A stretch of 45,744 nt of DNA, taken from contig JAAEMR010000141.1 of NCBI GenBank assembly GCA_024225395.1, positions 1 through 45,744 of the forward strand. The letters run 5' to 3'. The notes beneath the pieces were generated by a model that was given only the letters and a program-made list of their open reading frames with translations, ran no database searches and was not told the origin of the DNA. Shown here one piece after another: positions 1-6,198 of the stretch. The first letter of the stretch is position 1; each line of letters starts with the position of its first letter. The stretch is from Gammaproteobacteria bacterium. GTDB lineage: Bacteria; Pseudomonadota; Gammaproteobacteria; GCA-001735895. Both the position numbers and the translations under genes were made by a program.

Positions 1-327
1 GGGCATTATATATTTAATGGTTTGATTAATAATAAAGTGGTCACTTTCCTGGTTGATACCGGAGCAACAACCACCAGCATTCCTGCCAGTCTTGCTCCAG
101 CACTAGGCCTGCAGAAAGGTCACAGATTTTCCGTGCAGACCGCTAATGGCAACAGTTTTGCTTATTCAACAAAGGTTAACAGTTTGCAAATGGGTGATAT
201 TAAATTCACAAATGTGAGCGCAAGTCTTAATCCCGGATTACACAGCAATGAAATTCTTCTCGGCATGAATATCCTGAAACATGTTGAGCTTATTCAACTC
301 GGCGACACACTTATTTTAAGAAAATAA
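1..327 (+). CDS. Retropepsin-like clan AA aspartic protease (3' part)
   Basis: The gene enters from the left edge. Codons 1-21 read GHYIFNG in frame and run without a stop into the FLVDTGAT segment, so the TTG at 22 is probably internal and the true start lies outside. The DTG triad followed by A-T is the catalytic aspartate motif of single-domain retropepsin-like proteases; the hydrophobic ILLGMNIL near the C-terminus is the usual second core element of this fold. Bacterial members are often secreted or membrane anchored and probably work as homodimers. Substrate unknown. The gene lies about 110 bp upstream of bufA in the same direction, but no functional link is evident. Confidence 0.8.
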   Translation, partial: GHYIFNGLINNKVVTFLVDTGATTTSIPASLAPALGLQKGHRFSVQTANGNSFAYSTKVNSLQMGDIKFTNVSASLNPGLHSNEILLGMNILKHVELIQLGDTLILRK

Positions 328-388
328 AATCACTTTTTTTTGATATCTGTTGAACTTCCATATATGGTCGCCCTCTAACTCGGTGTAT

Positions 389-402
389 ATAGTAAACACT
401 AT
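389..402. promoter_or_regulatory. Small inverted repeat upstream of bufA
   Basis: ATAGT-AAAC-ACTAT is a perfect 5+4+5 inverted repeat 38 bases before the bufA start. It overlaps a TATAGT that could serve as a -10 element. It could be an operator or chance; no regulator can be assigned from sequence. Confidence 0.25.
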
Positions 403-439
403 GACGATTATTTAATTAAAAATAACGAGGATATACTTT

Positions 440-694
440 ATGAATACTGCAAAGAAAATTTCTGGTGTAGCTATAGCTGCCGCTGCTGCAACTATGTTCG
501 CTCTTGCTCCCATGAGCGCTACTGCCGGTGGACATAAAGCGGGAAAATGTACCGGCATCAATAGCTGCAAAGGAACATCTGCCTGTGCAACGGCTACTAC
601 TTCCTGTGCTGGTCAAAACTCCTGCAAAGGACAGGGCTGGATTAAAGCTACCAAAGCTGAATGTGAAGACAAAGGCGGTAAATTCGAGAGTTAA
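440..694 (+). CDS. bufA2: BufA2-family bufferin precursor (periplasmic metallophore peptide)
   Basis: The 84-residue precursor has a Sec signal peptide (residues 1-29: KK, an alanine-rich hydrophobic core, then ATA before G30). The mature part carries six cysteines at 37, 43, 49, 56, 62 and 75, arranged as INSCKG, SACAT, TSCAG, NSCKGQGW and AECEDKGG. This Cys spacing is the BufA2 pattern. Bufferins are ribosomally made, post-translationally modified peptides in which some cysteines are converted to thiooxazole heterocycles that bind copper, made by a DUF692 enzyme (BufB) with a partner (BufC); both follow at 926-2565. The start is supported by an ACGAGG-like ribosome site at 425-430. An intrinsic terminator follows the stop codon. 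The cysteines actually modified cannot be read from sequence. Confidence 0.88.
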   Translation: MNTAKKISGVAIAAAAATMFALAPMSATAGGHKAGKCTGINSCKGTSACATATTSCAGQNSCKGQGWIKATKAECEDKGGKFES

Positions 695-702
695 TCATCA
701 GA

Positions 703-846
703 TTAATTTTTAAAGAAAATGCACTGATTTATCAGTGCTTTTTTTTGGCACATGGATTTGCTTATGCTGCGAGGCCATGGATATATGGCAACCAGCAGTA
801 TTATGGCAAAAACGGCAACGAACAGTATTTTTACAGATAGCAACAA
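703..846 (-). CDS. Possible 47-residue single-pass membrane peptide
   Basis: A short minus-strand reading frame with a TTG start lies between bufA and bufB. Its product would have a strongly hydrophobic segment (VKILFVAVFAIILLVAIY) followed by WPRSISKS, which looks like a membrane helix with a basic flank. It has no ribosome site and reads through the bufA terminator stem, so it may be a chance frame or a relic. Reported only because it fills otherwise unexplained spacer. Confidence 0.12.
   Translation of the reverse strand: MLLSVKILFVAVFAIILLVAIYPWPRSISKSMCQKKALINQCIFFKN
721..746 (+). terminator. Intrinsic terminator after bufA
   Basis: GCACTGAT (721-728) pairs perfectly with ATCAGTGC (731-738) and is followed directly by eight T (739-746). 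This is a textbook rho-independent terminator 26 bases past the bufA stop. It should separate a short bufA transcript from the downstream maturation genes, or allow only limited read-through. Confidence 0.88.
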
Positions 847-868
847 TAATTAATTAGAAATACCTGCC

Positions 869-898
869 TTAACTAAAATCCACCTCTCAAGCTATAAT
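869..898 (+). promoter_or_regulatory. Candidate sigma70 promoter for bufBC
   Basis: TTAACT (869-874), an 18-base spacer and a perfect TATAAT (893-898) lie just before the bufB ATG at 926. Together with the terminator at 721-746 this suggests bufBC is transcribed separately from bufA. Judged by eye; no transcription data. Confidence 0.5.
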
Positions 899-925
899 TC
901 ACTTATAGATATAGTAAAACACCTT

Positions 926-1765
926 ATGCCAGCTCACATAGAAAAACCATTTCTCGGATTCGGCCTCGGGCTCAGATCAGAGCATTATCAGGAAGTGCTA
1001 GAACAACAGCCAAAGGAAATCGACTGGTTTGAAATTATTTCTGAAAACTACATGATCGATGGCGGAAAGCCACTGTATTTTCTGGATAAAATTCGACAGG
1101 ATTACCCGATGGTGATGCACGGCGTTTCCATGTCTATAGGCAGTACCGATCCATTAAATTTTGATTATCTAAAACAGCTTAAAGAATTAATAGACCGCGT
1201 AGAACCCATGTGGTTTTCTGATCACCTGTGCTGGACAGGAGTGGATCACCAGAATATGCATGACCTGCTACCACTGCCTTACACCGAAGCCTCGGTAAAC
1301 CATATTGCCGACAGAATTAGCCAGGTCCAGGATTTTCTCGGTCGTCAAATGCTCATCGAAAATCTATCGAGTTATATCACCTACACGGCCGATGCTATGA
1401 CCGAATGGGATTTTATAACCGCCGTGTCAGAAAAAGCAGACTGTAATATTTTGCTGGACGTTAATAATATTTACGTCAGTAGTTTTAATCATCATTTTGA
1501 TCCGATGGAATATCTTCGCGGAGTCCCGGCTAACAGAGTCTGGCAGCACCATCTTGCAGGCCACCAAAATACGGGCAACCTGATTATCGATACTCACGAT
1601 GAACCCATTATAGACCCGGTGTGGGAACTGTATGAAAAAACAGCACAACAGCTTGGCCCCGTTTCCACCATGATCGAGCGTGATGGCAATATCCCCCCGC
1701 TTTCTGAAGTCATTGATGAATTAAATCAGGCCAGAGAAATTGCCAAACCTTATTACGGAGCATAA
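926..1765 (+). CDS. bufB: BufB, DUF692 multinuclear iron enzyme for bufferin maturation
   Basis: The 279-residue protein is a full-length DUF692 family member (TIM-barrel, MNIO class, relative of MbnB). Typical family segments are visible: GFGLGLRSEHY at the N-terminus, WFEIISENYM, MVMHGVSMSIG, WFSDHLCW, LLPLPYTEA, MLIENLSSYI, LLDVNNIYVSS, HLAGH and IIDTHDEPI. The His, Glu, Asp and Asn residues in these segments form the di/tri-iron site in characterised relatives. It is expected to oxidise cysteines of BufA into heterocycles using oxygen and the mixed-valent iron centre, working with BufC. No clear Shine-Dalgarno precedes the ATG. bufC follows after 5 bases, so the two are almost certainly co-translated. 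Confidence 0.92.
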   Translation: MPAHIEKPFLGFGLGLRSEHYQEVLEQQPKEIDWFEIISENYMIDGGKPLYFLDKIRQDYPMVMHGVSMSIGSTDPLNFDYLKQLKELIDRVEPMWFSDHLCWTGVDHQNMHDLLPLPYTEASVNHIADRISQVQDFLGRQMLIENLSSYITYTADAMTEWDFITAVSEKADCNILLDVNNIYVSSFNHHFDPMEYLRGVPANRVWQHHLAGHQNTGNLIIDTHDEPIIDPVWELYEKTAQQLGPVSTMIERDGNIPPLSEVIDELNQAREIAKPYYGA

Positions 1766-1770
1766 TTTTA

Positions 1771-2565
1771 ATGAATAAAAAAAACTCCGAACTGCAGCAG
1801 TTACAAACTCGTTTCCAGGATTATATAACCGGGAAATCCGAGGACTTTGAGAAAGATATTATCAGTACCGAAGATGCTCTGGCAGAACATCGCCTGGGAG
1901 CATATTACAATGCTTACCGAATTCGTTTAATTAACAGTCTTGCTACCGACTTCGAGTGCCTGCAAAAAGAACTCGGTGAAGAAGCTTTTGAGTTAATGGT
2001 TCTGGATTACCTGAAACTGTACCCGTCAGATAACCCATCGGTACGCTGGGTGGGAATTCACCTCGTAGAATTTCTGCAACACAGTGAACACCCCGATAAA
2101 GCCTTCCTGGTTGAACTGGCAGAATTCGAATGGAACCAGGGACTGTGTTTTGATGCGGGTGATAGCGAGCAAATTTTCAGGCTGGAAGACATGGCTCAGA
2201 TAGCACCTGAAAACTGGCCACAATTAACCTTTCAATTTCATGATTCGGTGCGTTGGCTTGATCTGTATTCCAATGCGGCCCCTTATTGGGTTGCACTGGA
2301 TAGTAACAAACAACTTCCCGGGAAACATTTTGATGAAATTCCAACGCGCTGGTTAATGTGGCGCAAAGGCATGAGTCCGAACTGGCGCTCCCTGGAAGTT
2401 GCCGAAGCCTGGACCATAGAAGCCGCCTTTAATGGTATTAACTTTGCACAGCTGTGTGAAGGCTTATTAGAATGGATTGGTGAAGACCAGGTTGCCATAA
2501 CCGCTGCCGGTTTTCTTAAGCAATGGATACATGATGAATTAATCGTTCAGGTAAAATCGTCCTAG
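1771..2565 (+). CDS. bufC: BufC, DUF2063 partner of BufB
   Basis: The 264-residue protein begins with the HvfC/BufC N-terminal domain (DUF2063, once called putative DNA-binding): LQTRFQDYITG, RLGAYYNAYRIRLINSL, FECLQKELGEEAFELMVLDYL, then SDNPSVRWVG and FEWNQGLCFDA. The role known for the family is as a partner that binds the precursor and activates the DUF692 enzyme, comparable to MbnC; it is not now thought to be a DNA-binding protein. The C-terminal part (WLMWRKGMSPNWRSLEVAEAW onward) matches the usual extension. GGAG at 1757-1760, inside the end of bufB, is the ribosome site, 10 bases before ATG. Confidence 0.88.
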   Translation: MNKKNSELQQLQTRFQDYITGKSEDFEKDIISTEDALAEHRLGAYYNAYRIRLINSLATDFECLQKELGEEAFELMVLDYLKLYPSDNPSVRWVGIHLVEFLQHSEHPDKAFLVELAEFEWNQGLCFDAGDSEQIFRLEDMAQIAPENWPQLTFQFHDSVRWLDLYSNAAPYWVALDSNKQLPGKHFDEIPTRWLMWRKGMSPNWRSLEVAEAWTIEAAFNGINFAQLCEGLLEWIGEDQVAITAAGFLKQWIHDELIVQVKSS

Positions 2566-2571
2566 CATCAT

Positions 2572-2590
2572 AGCTGCACTCGGCGCAGCT
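2572..2590. other. Hairpin between convergent bufC and hupE-like gene
   Basis: AGCTGC and GCAGCT form a 6-bp stem with a 7-base loop in the 24-base gap between two convergent genes. There is no T-run on either strand, so a terminator role is possible but weak. Confidence 0.3.
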
Positions 2591-3711
2591 TACAGATAGC
2601 CGATTCTTTCTATGGTCCAGTACAACCCCATCATGGAAATACCCAAGGAACCGGGAATAATCACCAGCTTCCTGTACAGTTCATGATTTTTCCTGATCCA
2701 GAACACCGCTAAAAACGCCAGTAAGATCACACTCAACTGGCCCAGTTCAACACCCACATTAAAACTCAGCAAAGCAGTGACAAATTGCGATTCTGGTAGA
2801 CCCAGCTCTGTTAGAACTCCGGCGAATCCCATGCCATGCAACAAGCCAAATAAAAATACAATTACAATTCGCCACGGTTTTAACTCACGCGTCAGCAGGT
2901 TTTCTATGCCCACATAGGCAATAGATAATGCTATGAGAGGTTCAACAATCAATGATGAAACACTGATCAGACCGTACATGCTTAATGCCAGGGTAATCGT
3001 ATGGGCCAGAGTAAAAGCGGTTACCTGCCACAATAAAGGGCGGAATTTTCTACTCAGTAAAAAAAGCCCTAAAACAAACAGAATATGATCCAGACCCTTG
3101 GGTAGAATATGAATAAATCCCAGGCCGTTATAATCTACTGCAACATCAATCCAGCTACGTGGAATTACGTTTTCATGTAATAGGTATTGCGGGCTCTGCT
3201 GCCCTTTAACCAGCCAGTAGGTCGTTTTTTCAGCCTGACCTTCAGCGATAAAATTAACAACTGCATCACCATATTTTGGATCAAACGACCAAACAGCGGT
3301 TGAAGAACCCTGAGGTATTTGTGCAGAATAATGAATAACTGATTTTCTCGATAAGCGGGTATCGCCAACCTCCGGAATGTTTATATCCATTAACTGCCAG
3401 TCAACCTGAACACCTGAAAGCTCCAGCTTAAGCCCCTTACTAAATTTATCGGCATAGGCTTTAAATTTACCCGATAAATCATCAGCTGATAATTCACGCA
3501 ACTCCCGGTACACTTCAGCCTGAGGAGCATCATCGGTATTTTCATGTTCTGCACCAATTCCCGACAGCACAGCTTCTGCATTGGTCTCCAGCTGAACTTT
3601 TACCACTGCGTGTTGATCAAAGATAATAGTTGCAATAGCCGGACGCATTTGATGAGCCTGTGCCGGTGCTAAATTCAGAAAAAACAACAGTAAAAATAAG
3701 CTATGAAACAT
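2590..3711 (-). CDS. HupE/UreJ-family membrane protein
   Basis: A signal peptide (MFHSLFLLLFFLNLAPAQA) precedes an extracytoplasmic region of about 180 residues that starts HQMRPA. The C-terminal half is a HupE/UreJ_2 domain with six to seven membrane helices, including FIHILPKGLDHILFVLGLFLLSRK, FTLAHTITLAL and LLHGMGFAGVL. The histidines in LDHILF, LAHTITLA and LHGMGF are typical of the family, whose characterised members take up nickel or cobalt. The metal moved here is unknown. I prefer the ATG at 3711 because it gives a normal signal peptide; a GTG at 3732 in frame is the alternative. Either choice overlaps the start of the divergent gene at 3703. Proximity to the bufferin genes suggests metal handling; that link is inference. 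Confidence 0.75.
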   Translation of the reverse strand: MFHSLFLLLFFLNLAPAQAHQMRPAIATIIFDQHAVVKVQLETNAEAVLSGIGAEHENTDDAPQAEVYRELRELSADDLSGKFKAYADKFSKGLKLELSGVQVDWQLMDINIPEVGDTRLSRKSVIHYSAQIPQGSSTAVWSFDPKYGDAVVNFIAEGQAEKTTYWLVKGQQSPQYLLHENVIPRSWIDVAVDYNGLGFIHILPKGLDHILFVLGLFLLSRKFRPLLWQVTAFTLAHTITLALSMYGLISVSSLIVEPLIALSIAYVGIENLLTRELKPWRIVIVFLFGLLHGMGFAGVLTELGLPESQFVTALLSFNVGVELGQLSVILLAFLAVFWIRKNHELYRKLVIIPGSLGISMMGLYWTIERIGYL

Positions 3712-4527
3712 TTTTCTAATCAACAAAAGCACCTTTTATTTAAAATTTTAATAGTTTGTCTGACATTAATTTCTAGCAGAGGTTTCAGTCATGATTTCTG
3801 GTTGGAGGCGCACCCATTTTATACCAAAGCTAAAAAACCTGTTGATATTTCTGTGCATGTTGGTAATGAATTTATCGGTGACAGTCTGCCGAACATACTC
3901 AACTGGTATACAGATTTTAGCCTTTATCAAAAAAACTCAAAAACTGATATCAAGGGTGAACTGGGACGAGATCCCGCTGGATATTTTACACCCGATCAAA
4001 CGGGTACATATGCCATCGGCTATCAGAGTGATTTCAGCTATGTTGAAATTGATCCTGAGACCTTTATAAAATATTTAACCGATGAAGGTCTCGATAATGC
4101 CATTCAATTTCGCCAGAAAAATAAGCTGACGCAAACAATCGGAAAAGAAAACTATATTCGTCACGCCAAAGCGCTGGTGCAATCCGGTGATCAGTTTGGT
4201 ATCAATAACTCGAAAATTAACATGGGTTATGAGCTGGAAATAATTCCCTTAAGTAATCCATATAAAAAGAATTTAAACGACACGCTTAAAGTTAAAATTC
4301 TGTACCAGAACAAGCCTGTTAGTAACATCCTGTTAACTGCATACAGCAAAATCAGGCCCAGGCAGACTCAATCAATTCGAAGTAATAACAAAGGTGAGGC
4401 CAGCATTACCTTAGATCAAACCGGACCCTGGCTACTTAAGGCCGTTAAAATACAAAAGATTAATGATGGTAAAGCTAACTGGCAAAGCCACTGGGCCAGT
4501 CTAACATTCGAAGTTATTAATCCGTGA
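3703..4527 (+). CDS. DUF4198-family periplasmic protein
   Basis: The 274-residue protein has an N-terminal signal (basic KHFSNQQKHLLFK, hydrophobic ILIVCLTLISS) followed by SHDFWLEAHPF, the diagnostic beginning of DUF4198. The domain continues through YFTPDQTGTYAIGYQS and ends with a beta-rich segment (KIRPRQTQSIRSNNKGEAS, then LDQTGPWLLKAVKI) like a carboxypeptidase-regulatory or Ig-type fold. DUF4198 proteins are often encoded next to nickel or cobalt uptake genes and are thought to be periplasmic metal-binding or carrier components, which fits the HupE-like neighbour. No ATG other than 3703 precedes the signal sequence, so the overlap with the divergent gene appears real. Exact function unknown. 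Confidence 0.72.
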   Translation: MKHFSNQQKHLLFKILIVCLTLISSRGFSHDFWLEAHPFYTKAKKPVDISVHVGNEFIGDSLPNILNWYTDFSLYQKNSKTDIKGELGRDPAGYFTPDQTGTYAIGYQSDFSYVEIDPETFIKYLTDEGLDNAIQFRQKNKLTQTIGKENYIRHAKALVQSGDQFGINNSKINMGYELEIIPLSNPYKKNLNDTLKVKILYQNKPVSNILLTAYSKIRPRQTQSIRSNNKGEASITLDQTGPWLLKAVKIQKINDGKANWQSHWASLTFEVINP

Positions 4528-4589
4528 ACATTACACATTTGTATTTTCTCAGCGAGTATCAATAATTTATCACTTTTAATTCCCGCGCT

Positions 4590-4720
4590 GGGAACACGAA
4601 GCTCACGAAGAAAACAAAGGCTGTTTGAGAAGATAAGCGCAAAACCATCCATTACCATAATTTTGAAAACTTATAGCCATTCTGATTTTTCTTGGTGTAT
4701 TTCTGCTGTTCGTGGAAATA
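4590..4720. repeat. Interspersed repeat, type 1, copy A
   Basis: The left end AACACGAAGCTCACGAAGAA (4593-4612) is mirrored by the right end TTCTGCTGTTCGTGG (4701-4715). The interior includes CCATTACCATAATTTTGAAA, also seen in diverged form in copy C (11126-11271). It lies in the 246-bp spacer between DUF4198 and the DUF2007 gene. The rest of that spacer shows nothing else. Confidence 0.6.
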
Positions 4721-4773
4721 ATCTTGTAACTTTATTAGTTCACAGCATGTTTTTCATAAGGAACCATTAAAGT

Positions 4774-5094
4774 TTATTTATTTATCTCTGGAACAGGGGA
4801 ATTACATTTCCAGCATATATTGAAGTTTTCGCTATTGCTTTCGCTACAGATAGAGCAGATCCAGTCGACCCCGTGTGTTTTAATTCTCAACATTTCGGTG
4901 ATAATTTTTTCTGCTTTTTCAAACTGATAATCCTCAGAAACCCAGATTTCCGGCCAGGTTTCAACAGGTGCTAAAACACCAGCACCGCTACTGGAAAATT
5001 CATTTTCTATAAAACAACTTATACCCTGTTCTTCCAGCAGGTTTTTAAGATTAAAAACTATCAGTCGATTTTCGTGGGTATACAGTTTTTTCAT
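4774..5094 (-). CDS. DUF2007 protein with C-terminal zinc ribbon
   Basis: The 106-residue protein has a DUF2007 domain (residues 1-70: KKLYTHENRLIVFNLKNLLEE, then EIWVSEDYQFEKAEKII), a small alpha-beta fold labelled as a putative signal-transducing domain. A linker leads to a C-terminal zinc finger with Cys80, Cys83, Cys94 and Cys97 (CxxC-x10-CxxC, with W78 and N92), like RanBP2-type ribbons. Such ribbons bind RNA or protein partners. It is the last gene of a minus-strand run (prmB, methyltransferase, DjlA-like, cupin), separated from the cupin by 25 bases. Function is not established for the family. Confidence 0.75.
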   Translation of the reverse strand: MKKLYTHENRLIVFNLKNLLEEQGISCFIENEFSSSGAGVLAPVETWPEIWVSEDYQFEKAEKIITEMLRIKTHGVDWICSICSESNSENFNICWKCNSPVPEINK

Positions 5095-5119
5095 TGAGTA
5101 ATATCAGGTTGAAATAAAG

Positions 5120-5398
5120 TTACTCAAAACGATAATGCTTGGAAATAAATTCAATCACTTTCCAGGTGCAGGACATGCCTTTTGGAAAAGTCACAAAGTC
5201 ACCCCGGTTTAACTCAACAGGTTCTCCACCATCGGGAGTCACAATGACTTTACCTTCAAGAATGTAACAAACTTCCTGGCGGTCATAAGTCCACGGGAAT
5301 TCAGAGGGTTCTTTTTCCCAGATTGGCCATTCCTCTACGCCTAAGACATCCAGTTTTCCTGGTGCAGGATTATGCTCATATAAAATATCGGTAATCAT
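5120..5398 (-). CDS. Small cupin-domain protein
   Basis: The 92-residue single-domain cupin carries motif 1 (VCYILEGKVIVTPDGGEPVEL) and motif 2 (GDFVTFPKGMSCTWKV), related to the (S)-ureidoglycine aminohydrolase-type cupin (DUF861). The usual metal-binding His residues of motif 1 are not all present, so it may bind a small ligand rather than catalyse. The ATG overlaps the stop of the upstream DjlA-like gene by 4 bases (ATGA), indicating translational coupling. No substrate can be inferred. Confidence 0.8.
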   Translation of the reverse strand: MITDILYEHNPAPGKLDVLGVEEWPIWEKEPSEFPWTYDRQEVCYILEGKVIVTPDGGEPVELNRGDFVTFPKGMSCTWKVIEFISKHYRFE

Positions 5399-6198
5399 CG
5401 CATTTCTCTGGATTCTTTAATTTGTTCGTAGGCGTCTTTAATTTGCTGCGTTTTTTCAGTGGCATCCTTAATCATTTCTTCCGGTAAACCTTTTGCAACA
5501 AGCTTATCCGGGTGATGTTGAGACATCAGGCGACGATATGACTTTTTTACTTCAGCATCAGTCGCTGACTTAGTGCTACCCAAAAGATGATAGGCATCAG
5601 ATAAACTGGTAGTACGATGTGTTTGAGCAGAAGATTGATACCCACCGCGACCAAAACCGGCTTTAAGCATTTCTTCCAGTCGGCGCAACTGGGAAACAGG
5701 AACTCCTAAACGGTTGCAGATATGAATCAGTAATTCTTCTTCAGCCTGGTCCAGTACACCATCGGCATAAGCAGCCTGTAACTGAATTTCCAGAAACATT
5801 TGCAACAGCGTACTGCGACGATGCAATTCCTGTTTAAACTGATCAAGGATTTCATCCAGCGGAAAATCATCCGATTTACCTTCGTTGAATAAACGTTTGG
5901 CAGACTCACGGACATCAGCCTCAAGCCCCATGTGAGACATGACCGCTTCAGCCATTCGAATTTCTTCAGGGGTTACCTTGCCATCGGCTTTTGCGATATG
6001 CCCCATGACTGAAAAAGTGGCGGTAAAAAAAACTGCCTGCACACGCTCCTGCTGTCCGGGCTGAAATTTCTCACCCGACATGACATTGCCGAGCCCCTTG
6101 TCAAAATTATGTCCGAAGCCGATACCGATTAGCGCTCCTAACGGACCACCCAGCATAAACCCAAATGCGCCACCAAGCGCTTTACCCCACCACGCCAT
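5395..6198 (-). CDS. djlA: DjlA-type co-chaperone (TerB-like plus J domain)
   Basis: The 267-residue protein has three parts. A glycine-rich hydrophobic N-terminus (MAWWGKALGGAFGFMLGGPLG, then ALIGIGFGH) probably inserts in or lies on the inner membrane. A TerB-like helical domain spans about residues 50-175 (FSVMGHIAKADGKVTPEEI, then ADGVLDQAEEELL). The C-terminal J domain (about 200-265) has the HPD motif in SQHHPDKLVAKGLP. The HPD motif stimulates the ATPase of DnaK. This is the DjlA layout and length. It sits 5 bases downstream of the methyltransferase gene and overlaps the cupin gene, so it is part of one transcript. Confidence 0.88.
   Translation of the reverse strand: MAWWGKALGGAFGFMLGGPLGALIGIGFGHNFDKGLGNVMSGEKFQPGQQERVQAVFFTATFSVMGHIAKADGKVTPEEIRMAEAVMSHMGLEADVRESAKRLFNEGKSDDFPLDEILDQFKQELHRRSTLLQMFLEIQLQAAYADGVLDQAEEELLIHICNRLGVPVSQLRRLEEMLKAGFGRGGYQSSAQTHRTTSLSDAYHLLGSTKSATDAEVKKSYRRLMSQHHPDKLVAKGLPEEMIKDATEKTQQIKDAYEQIKESREMR

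Follow-up and report, generated by a model that had tools for sequence, protein, structure and literature searches.

A Buf2-type bufferin operon with a sigma-E-type promoter and a conserved terminator-like hairpin in a family of marine Gammaproteobacteria

The window, that is, the whole stretch of 45,744 nucleotides analysed here, carries a typical Buf2 bufferin operon, a kind of system that is already known; what is new here is its non-coding regulation, consisting of a sigma-E-type promoter in front of bufA2 and an internal terminator-like hairpin (Table 1). With a probability of about 85%, the operon would encode a Cu(I)-buffering peptide modified by BufBC, would be switched on by sigma-E and would be attenuated at the hairpin. 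We also regard as fairly probable the more specific claim that, in one marine family of the Gammaproteobacteria, the Buf2 operon belongs to the general sigma-E regulon through a promoter shared almost exclusively with rpoH, and that the hairpin sets a high ratio of precursor to enzyme.

Table 1. Features at and around the buf locus, in positions of the window.
Feature	Position	Strand	Description
Clan-AA aspartic protease gene	1-327		TIGR02281; directly 5' of bufA2; cut by the contig edge
Sigma-E (RpoE/ECF02)-type promoter	350-378	+	TTGAACTT-N16-CTCTAA; 88 bp 5' of bufA2
bufA2	440-694	+	84 aa; bufferin precursor; NF050166 BufA2
Intrinsic-terminator-like hairpin	721-746	+	7-bp stem with T8 tail; 26 nt 3' of the bufA2 stop
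bufB	926-1765	+	279 aa; MNIO-family bufferin maturase; NF050167, DUF692/PF05114
bufC	1771-2565	+	264 aa; DUF2063 partner, PME type 1; PF09836
HupE_UreJ_2 gene	2590-3732		Convergent with bufC
DUF4198 gene	3703-4527		Beside the buf locus

Buf2 bufferins form a large, already published family, and the earlier note had assigned the three genes to it at the coordinates given in Table 1, which proved right. The assignment was borne out by profile scores for all three products, the lack of which the note had named as grounds for refutation: BufA2 matched NCBIfam NF050166 (E 2.5e-23, 82.1 bits; cutoff 60), BufB matched NF050167 (E 9.9e-117, 388.9 bits; cutoff 310) and Pfam PF05114 (380.6 bits), and BufC matched Pfam PF09836, DUF2063 (59.7 bits; cutoff 27.2). 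BufC stayed below the HvfC equivalog cutoff (30.9 versus 142 bits), as expected of a Buf2-type partner. Both the order bufA2-bufB-bufC and the six-cysteine pattern of the precursor, which the note had also described, were kept across dozens of loci. A ribosome-binding-like CGAGGA lies 5' of bufA2. The genes bufA2 and bufB are 231 bp apart, and this gap contains the hairpin; neither the gap nor the promoter is mentioned in the earlier note, although the two conserved elements are the most informative feature of the locus. The source genome (4.45 Mb in 265 contigs, the window being contig C141) encodes one MNIO protein and one BufA2, both at this locus, and when six BufA2-negative genomes of the family (G005, G011, G013, G022, G024 and G032) were re-scanned, MNIO was absent from them too. 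An Rfam search of positions 1-6000 of the window gave no match, a search of solved structures gave none for BufA2, and the same search with BufC returned one non-significant match. The description of the locus as complete holds for the A-B-C core and does not hold for DoxX, for which no gene was found at the locus; DoxX is frequent in published Buf clusters and is not essential. A DoxX/HvfX-like gene on another contig (C177, locus L142) was considered as a missing bufD and was not assigned, with 58.5 bits against an HvfX cutoff of 80; it lies near a different ECF sigma/anti-sigma-like pair and is unlinked to buf.

The locus shares the Sec signal, the six cysteines, the bufABC order and the pairing of an MNIO enzyme with a DUF2063 partner with the known Buf2 systems (Buf_6/12Cys, BufA2) such as the second bufferin of Caulobacter vibrioides (PMC12452194), and exceeds the NCBIfam cutoffs for BufA2 and BufB. 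It differs from them in having a sigma-E-type instead of a SigF-type promoter, a terminator-like hairpin conserved in the bufA2-bufB gap, no DoxX, and Gly or Ala where they have Asp beside the catalytic Asp of BufB. The Buf1 (DUF2282) bufferins, or GIG operons, of C. vibrioides, Cupriavidus and Legionella use the same enzyme and partner families, and that of Caulobacter resembles the operon of the window as an ECF-controlled metal-stress operon (PMC3511200, PMC8224329). Their precursor, however, belongs to another family with four conserved cysteines (DUF2282/BufA1, PF10048), which had no match in the genome of the window, and their clusters, unlike this locus, can include their own sigma factor together with NrsF.

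Sigma and anti-sigma factor genes were reported in Buf1 clusters and not in Buf2 clusters (PMC12452194), which raises the question of how Buf2 operons outside Caulobacter are switched on. In Caulobacter, where ECF-controlled bufferin operons respond to metals (PMC3511200, PMC8224329), both bufferin operons require SigF, which acts through GTAACC-N16-CGAA (PMC3511200), and copper induces them (PMC8224329). A DUF692 operon of Sinorhizobium is controlled through a similar motif by RpoE7, an ECF16 factor (PMC6180224). The open literature that we searched, outside which most subscription journals lie, yielded no link between sigma-E and Buf2.

The loci compared were 67 buf loci together with matches in 35 of 57 related genomes; some loci are the same record in both collections, and counts refer to distinct sequences where so stated. 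When the upstream regions of the family were aligned, a single common block was found, GAACTT-N16/17-TCTAA, located in nearly all of them 78-97 bp before the start codon. The promoter was present in 26 of 30 distinct upstream regions under a strict definition and in 29 of 30 under a relaxed one, with approximately none expected, while strict matches were found in none of eight orphan bufA2 paralogues and in none of 44 loci of other lineages. The promoter of bufA2 is thus conserved and family-specific in this sample. The core GAACTT-N15-17-TCTAA alone is not enriched genome-wide, with six sites in the own genome against 12 in the control; three of the six are those of bufA2 (352-378), of a sigma-32 gene and of a tail-specific protease gene. 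The extended form TTGAACTT-N15-17-CTCTAA occurs only twice in this genome, before rpoH and before bufA2, and all 12 matches in 20 relatives precede either rpoH (8) or bufA2 (4). Using TGAACTT-N15-17-CTCTAA on 40 family genomes, 27 of the 42 sites listed belonged to bufA2, 12 to rpoH and 3 to other genes, the sites being sorted by sequence patterns in the downstream open reading frame.

A closely similar element, TTGAACTT-N16-TCTGA, lies 120 bp before the start of rpoH in E. coli K-12 (NC_000913), and is the established sigma-E promoter of that gene. The bufA2 element reads TTGAACTT-N16-TCTAA over the same stretch, and has a metallophore operon downstream where E. coli has rpoH. GAACTT-N16-TCTRA is thus common to bufA2 and rpoH, and the genome encodes RpoE (TIGR02939, 313 versus 236 bits) as well as RseA-like and RseB-like proteins. 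From these sequence features we infer that the bufA2 operon of this family would belong to the envelope-stress regulon of sigma-E (RpoE).

It is conceivable, although we consider it unlikely, that an ECF sigma factor other than RpoE recognises the motif, for instance a copper-responsive one encoded elsewhere. The genome does hold several further sigma-70 family/ECF factors, the known bufferin operons run on SigF/ECF16 (PMC3511200, PMC6180224), and the sigma-E motif was not found 5' of the rpoE gene itself, although the own operon of sigma-E belongs to many sigma-E regulons. On the other hand, the same motif stands before bufA2 and rpoH in the same genomes and is also that of the E. coli rpoH promoter. 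As to SigF, its anti-sigma factor NrsF is absent from the genome and passed the cutoff in no family genome, and GTAACC-N16-CGAA was not found in the family upstream regions, whereas two Buf2 loci of Sphingomonadales (L052 and L055) carry it exactly, 89-90 bp before bufA2. Control by RpoE is the reading that we retain, and the comparison suggests that the same operon has been plugged into different ECF sigma factors by lineage, of the SigF type in the two Sphingomonadales loci and of the sigma-E type here.

Directly 3' of the promoter, at 379-400, there is an inverted repeat (TATAGT-AAAC-ACTATG), with counterparts of other sequence in some relatives (for example L003, L079 and L006) and not in all; it is possibly a stem-loop at the 5' end of the mRNA. 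A further side observation concerns a second, orphan bufA2 without nearby bufBC, which is present in several family genomes (L072, L073, L074, L075, L078, L080 and L086). These paralogues have more Cys-Lys motifs and are devoid of the sigma-E-type promoter, so a single BufBC may act on two precursors that are under different control.

The second regulatory element is the hairpin, whose sequence is GCACTGA-TTTA-TCAGTGC followed by eight T. All 41 canonical loci of the family that were tested have it, approximately 20-35 nt after the bufA2 stop, as do 2 of 27 other Buf2 loci, with 0.3 predicted in all by simple mononucleotide shuffles, some of the loci being duplicates; the hairpin is conserved and family-specific in this sample and rare elsewhere. 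Across 28 distinct sequences, pairing was retained in 96.7% of cells compared to 30-58% in slid controls, four pairs had changed on both sides, and the observed covariation score was reached by no shuffle. Pairing and covariation together therefore argue for a maintained, transcribed hairpin, and its sequence is most simply read as that of a partial terminator. A somewhat doubtful alternative is that it is a full terminator followed by a separate bufBC promoter, or a stabiliser of the mRNA 3' end, and not an attenuator. The window offers some room for this, as hairpin and bufB lie 180 nt apart and the sequence TTAACT-N18-TATAAT at 869-898 is promoter-like, but the distance is only about 50 nt in most relatives, which leaves little space for a promoter, and a stabilising role would be compatible with attenuation. 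Partial termination would also explain how the amounts of precursor and enzyme could differ.

The BufA2 precursor has a Sec signal peptide, judged by eye from its positive N-terminus, hydrophobic stretch and ATA-G, with AxA cleavage predicted after A29, and six invariant cysteines, at the positions 37, 43, 49, 56, 62 and 75 that the earlier note had listed correctly. Their spacing, C-x5-C-x5-C-x6-C-x5-C-x10-14-C, was found in 82 of 82 distinct BufA2 sequences. An alignment of 37 BufA2 sequences showed two CxxxNxC units and the invariant residues C37, N41, C43, K44, G45, C49, C56, G58, N60, C62, G66 and C75. Only the Lys after C43 never varies; of the 82 distinct sequences, 61 have Lys and 21 have Ala directly after C62. 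Because all six cysteines are invariant, conservation cannot single out the modified ones; by analogy with Buf1, C43, C49, C56 and C62 might tentatively be expected to be modified, with C37 and C75 perhaps forming a disulphide. The view that BufA2 is the less well characterised subtype was a fair one, as the chemistry of the modification on Buf2 was still to be established according to PMC12452194. Homology to published bufferins (PMC12452194, PMC13097082) suggests that the product would bear thiooxazoles and have a function in copper handling. MNIO-PME1 pairs install 5-thiooxazole (PMC13097082), and such a pair is common to the operon of the window and to the Lys-Cys captophorins fontiphorin, oxazolin and bulbicupramide, in which the modification is made on a Cys-rich peptide (PMC13097082, PMC12538549). 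Those peptides have EGKCG repeats, whereas BufA2 of the window has the two CxxxNxC units and falls in the Cys-Lys group. The finding that expression with copper was undetected for the related mmr cluster of Microbulbifer (PMC12538549) counts against the explanation favoured here.

BufB aligns to the MNIO structure 3BWW and to MbnB structures, and is predicted to be a multi-iron oxidase. Its metal-ligand-type residues H65, H100, N180, H209, D222, H224 and D253 were invariant in 70 of 70 BufB sequences, D253 aligning with the catalytic Asp and G254 occupying the position of substrate specificity. The residue after the catalytic Asp governs selectivity (D249, then F250 in FonB), and in Cys-Lys enzymes it is an Asp (Asp251 of BufB2) for which a model suggests a contact to the substrate Lys (PMC13097082). 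BufB of the window lacks the Asp that marks the MNIO enzymes of Cys-Lys captophorins and has G254 in its place, a further point against the favoured explanation; in its family, the position is Gly in 24 and Ala in 4 of 28 distinct BufB sequences, compared to Asp in 20 of 29 outside the family, a comparison confounded by phylogeny. Since the family has Gly or Ala at this position despite the invariant Cys43-Lys44 of its precursor, the proposed Lys contact is not general, and the combination provides a test of the proposed specificity rule.

Genes on both sides of the operon were also considered as parts of the system. The remainder of the upstream protease gene was located on contig C47, adjoining aroC, so C47 and C141 are probably adjacent in the genome, and the order aroC-protease-buf is kept across the family. 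That this protease is dedicated to bufferin maturation or processing is highly improbable. Nearly all canonical family loci on contigs that extend far enough have it directly 5' of bufA2, and a protease gene is reportedly lacking from the related mmr cluster (PMC12538549), but the aroC-protease pair persists in genomes with neither BufA2 nor MNIO in a PF05114 scan (G011, G013 and G032), and the Buf2 loci of other lineages gave no match to such a protease gene. The protease was ruled out as a buf partner on the grounds that aroC-protease occurs without buf; most likely it is not required and is a passive neighbour by position. In two of these genomes (L124 of G013 and L125 of G032), a LysR gene stands between the protease gene and gcvP, in the slot that bufABC occupies elsewhere in the family, which suggests gain or loss of the whole buf cassette.

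Downstream, the adjoining HupE_UreJ_2 and DUF4198 genes could speak for a BufA2 peptide that handles a metal other than copper, such as nickel or cobalt. We give this very little credence, as only some loci from the genus of the window (L003, L005, L015 and L122) have the two genes after buf, gcvP or other genes take their place in the other family loci, and the HupE-type gene and bufC are convergent. Being linked to buf in some loci of one genus only, they were ruled out as part of the system, and they may concern another metal.

Taken together, we propose the following working. In the cytoplasm, BufC would recognise the precursor together with its signal peptide and present it to BufB, the multi-iron MNIO, which would oxidise selected cysteines to 5-thiooxazoles; the modified peptide would be exported by Sec, cut after A29, and would buffer excess Cu(I) in the periplasm. 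Periplasmic damage, including that caused by copper, would lead RseA to release RpoE and so switch on the operon, most transcripts would end at the hairpin after bufA2, so that precursor would be in large excess over enzyme, and bufBC would be expressed from read-through. A promoter almost exclusively common to rpoH offers a direct and testable answer on the control of Buf2 for the whole family. If true, peptide-based copper buffering in these bacteria would be coupled to envelope damage rather than to SigF or a dedicated copper sensor.
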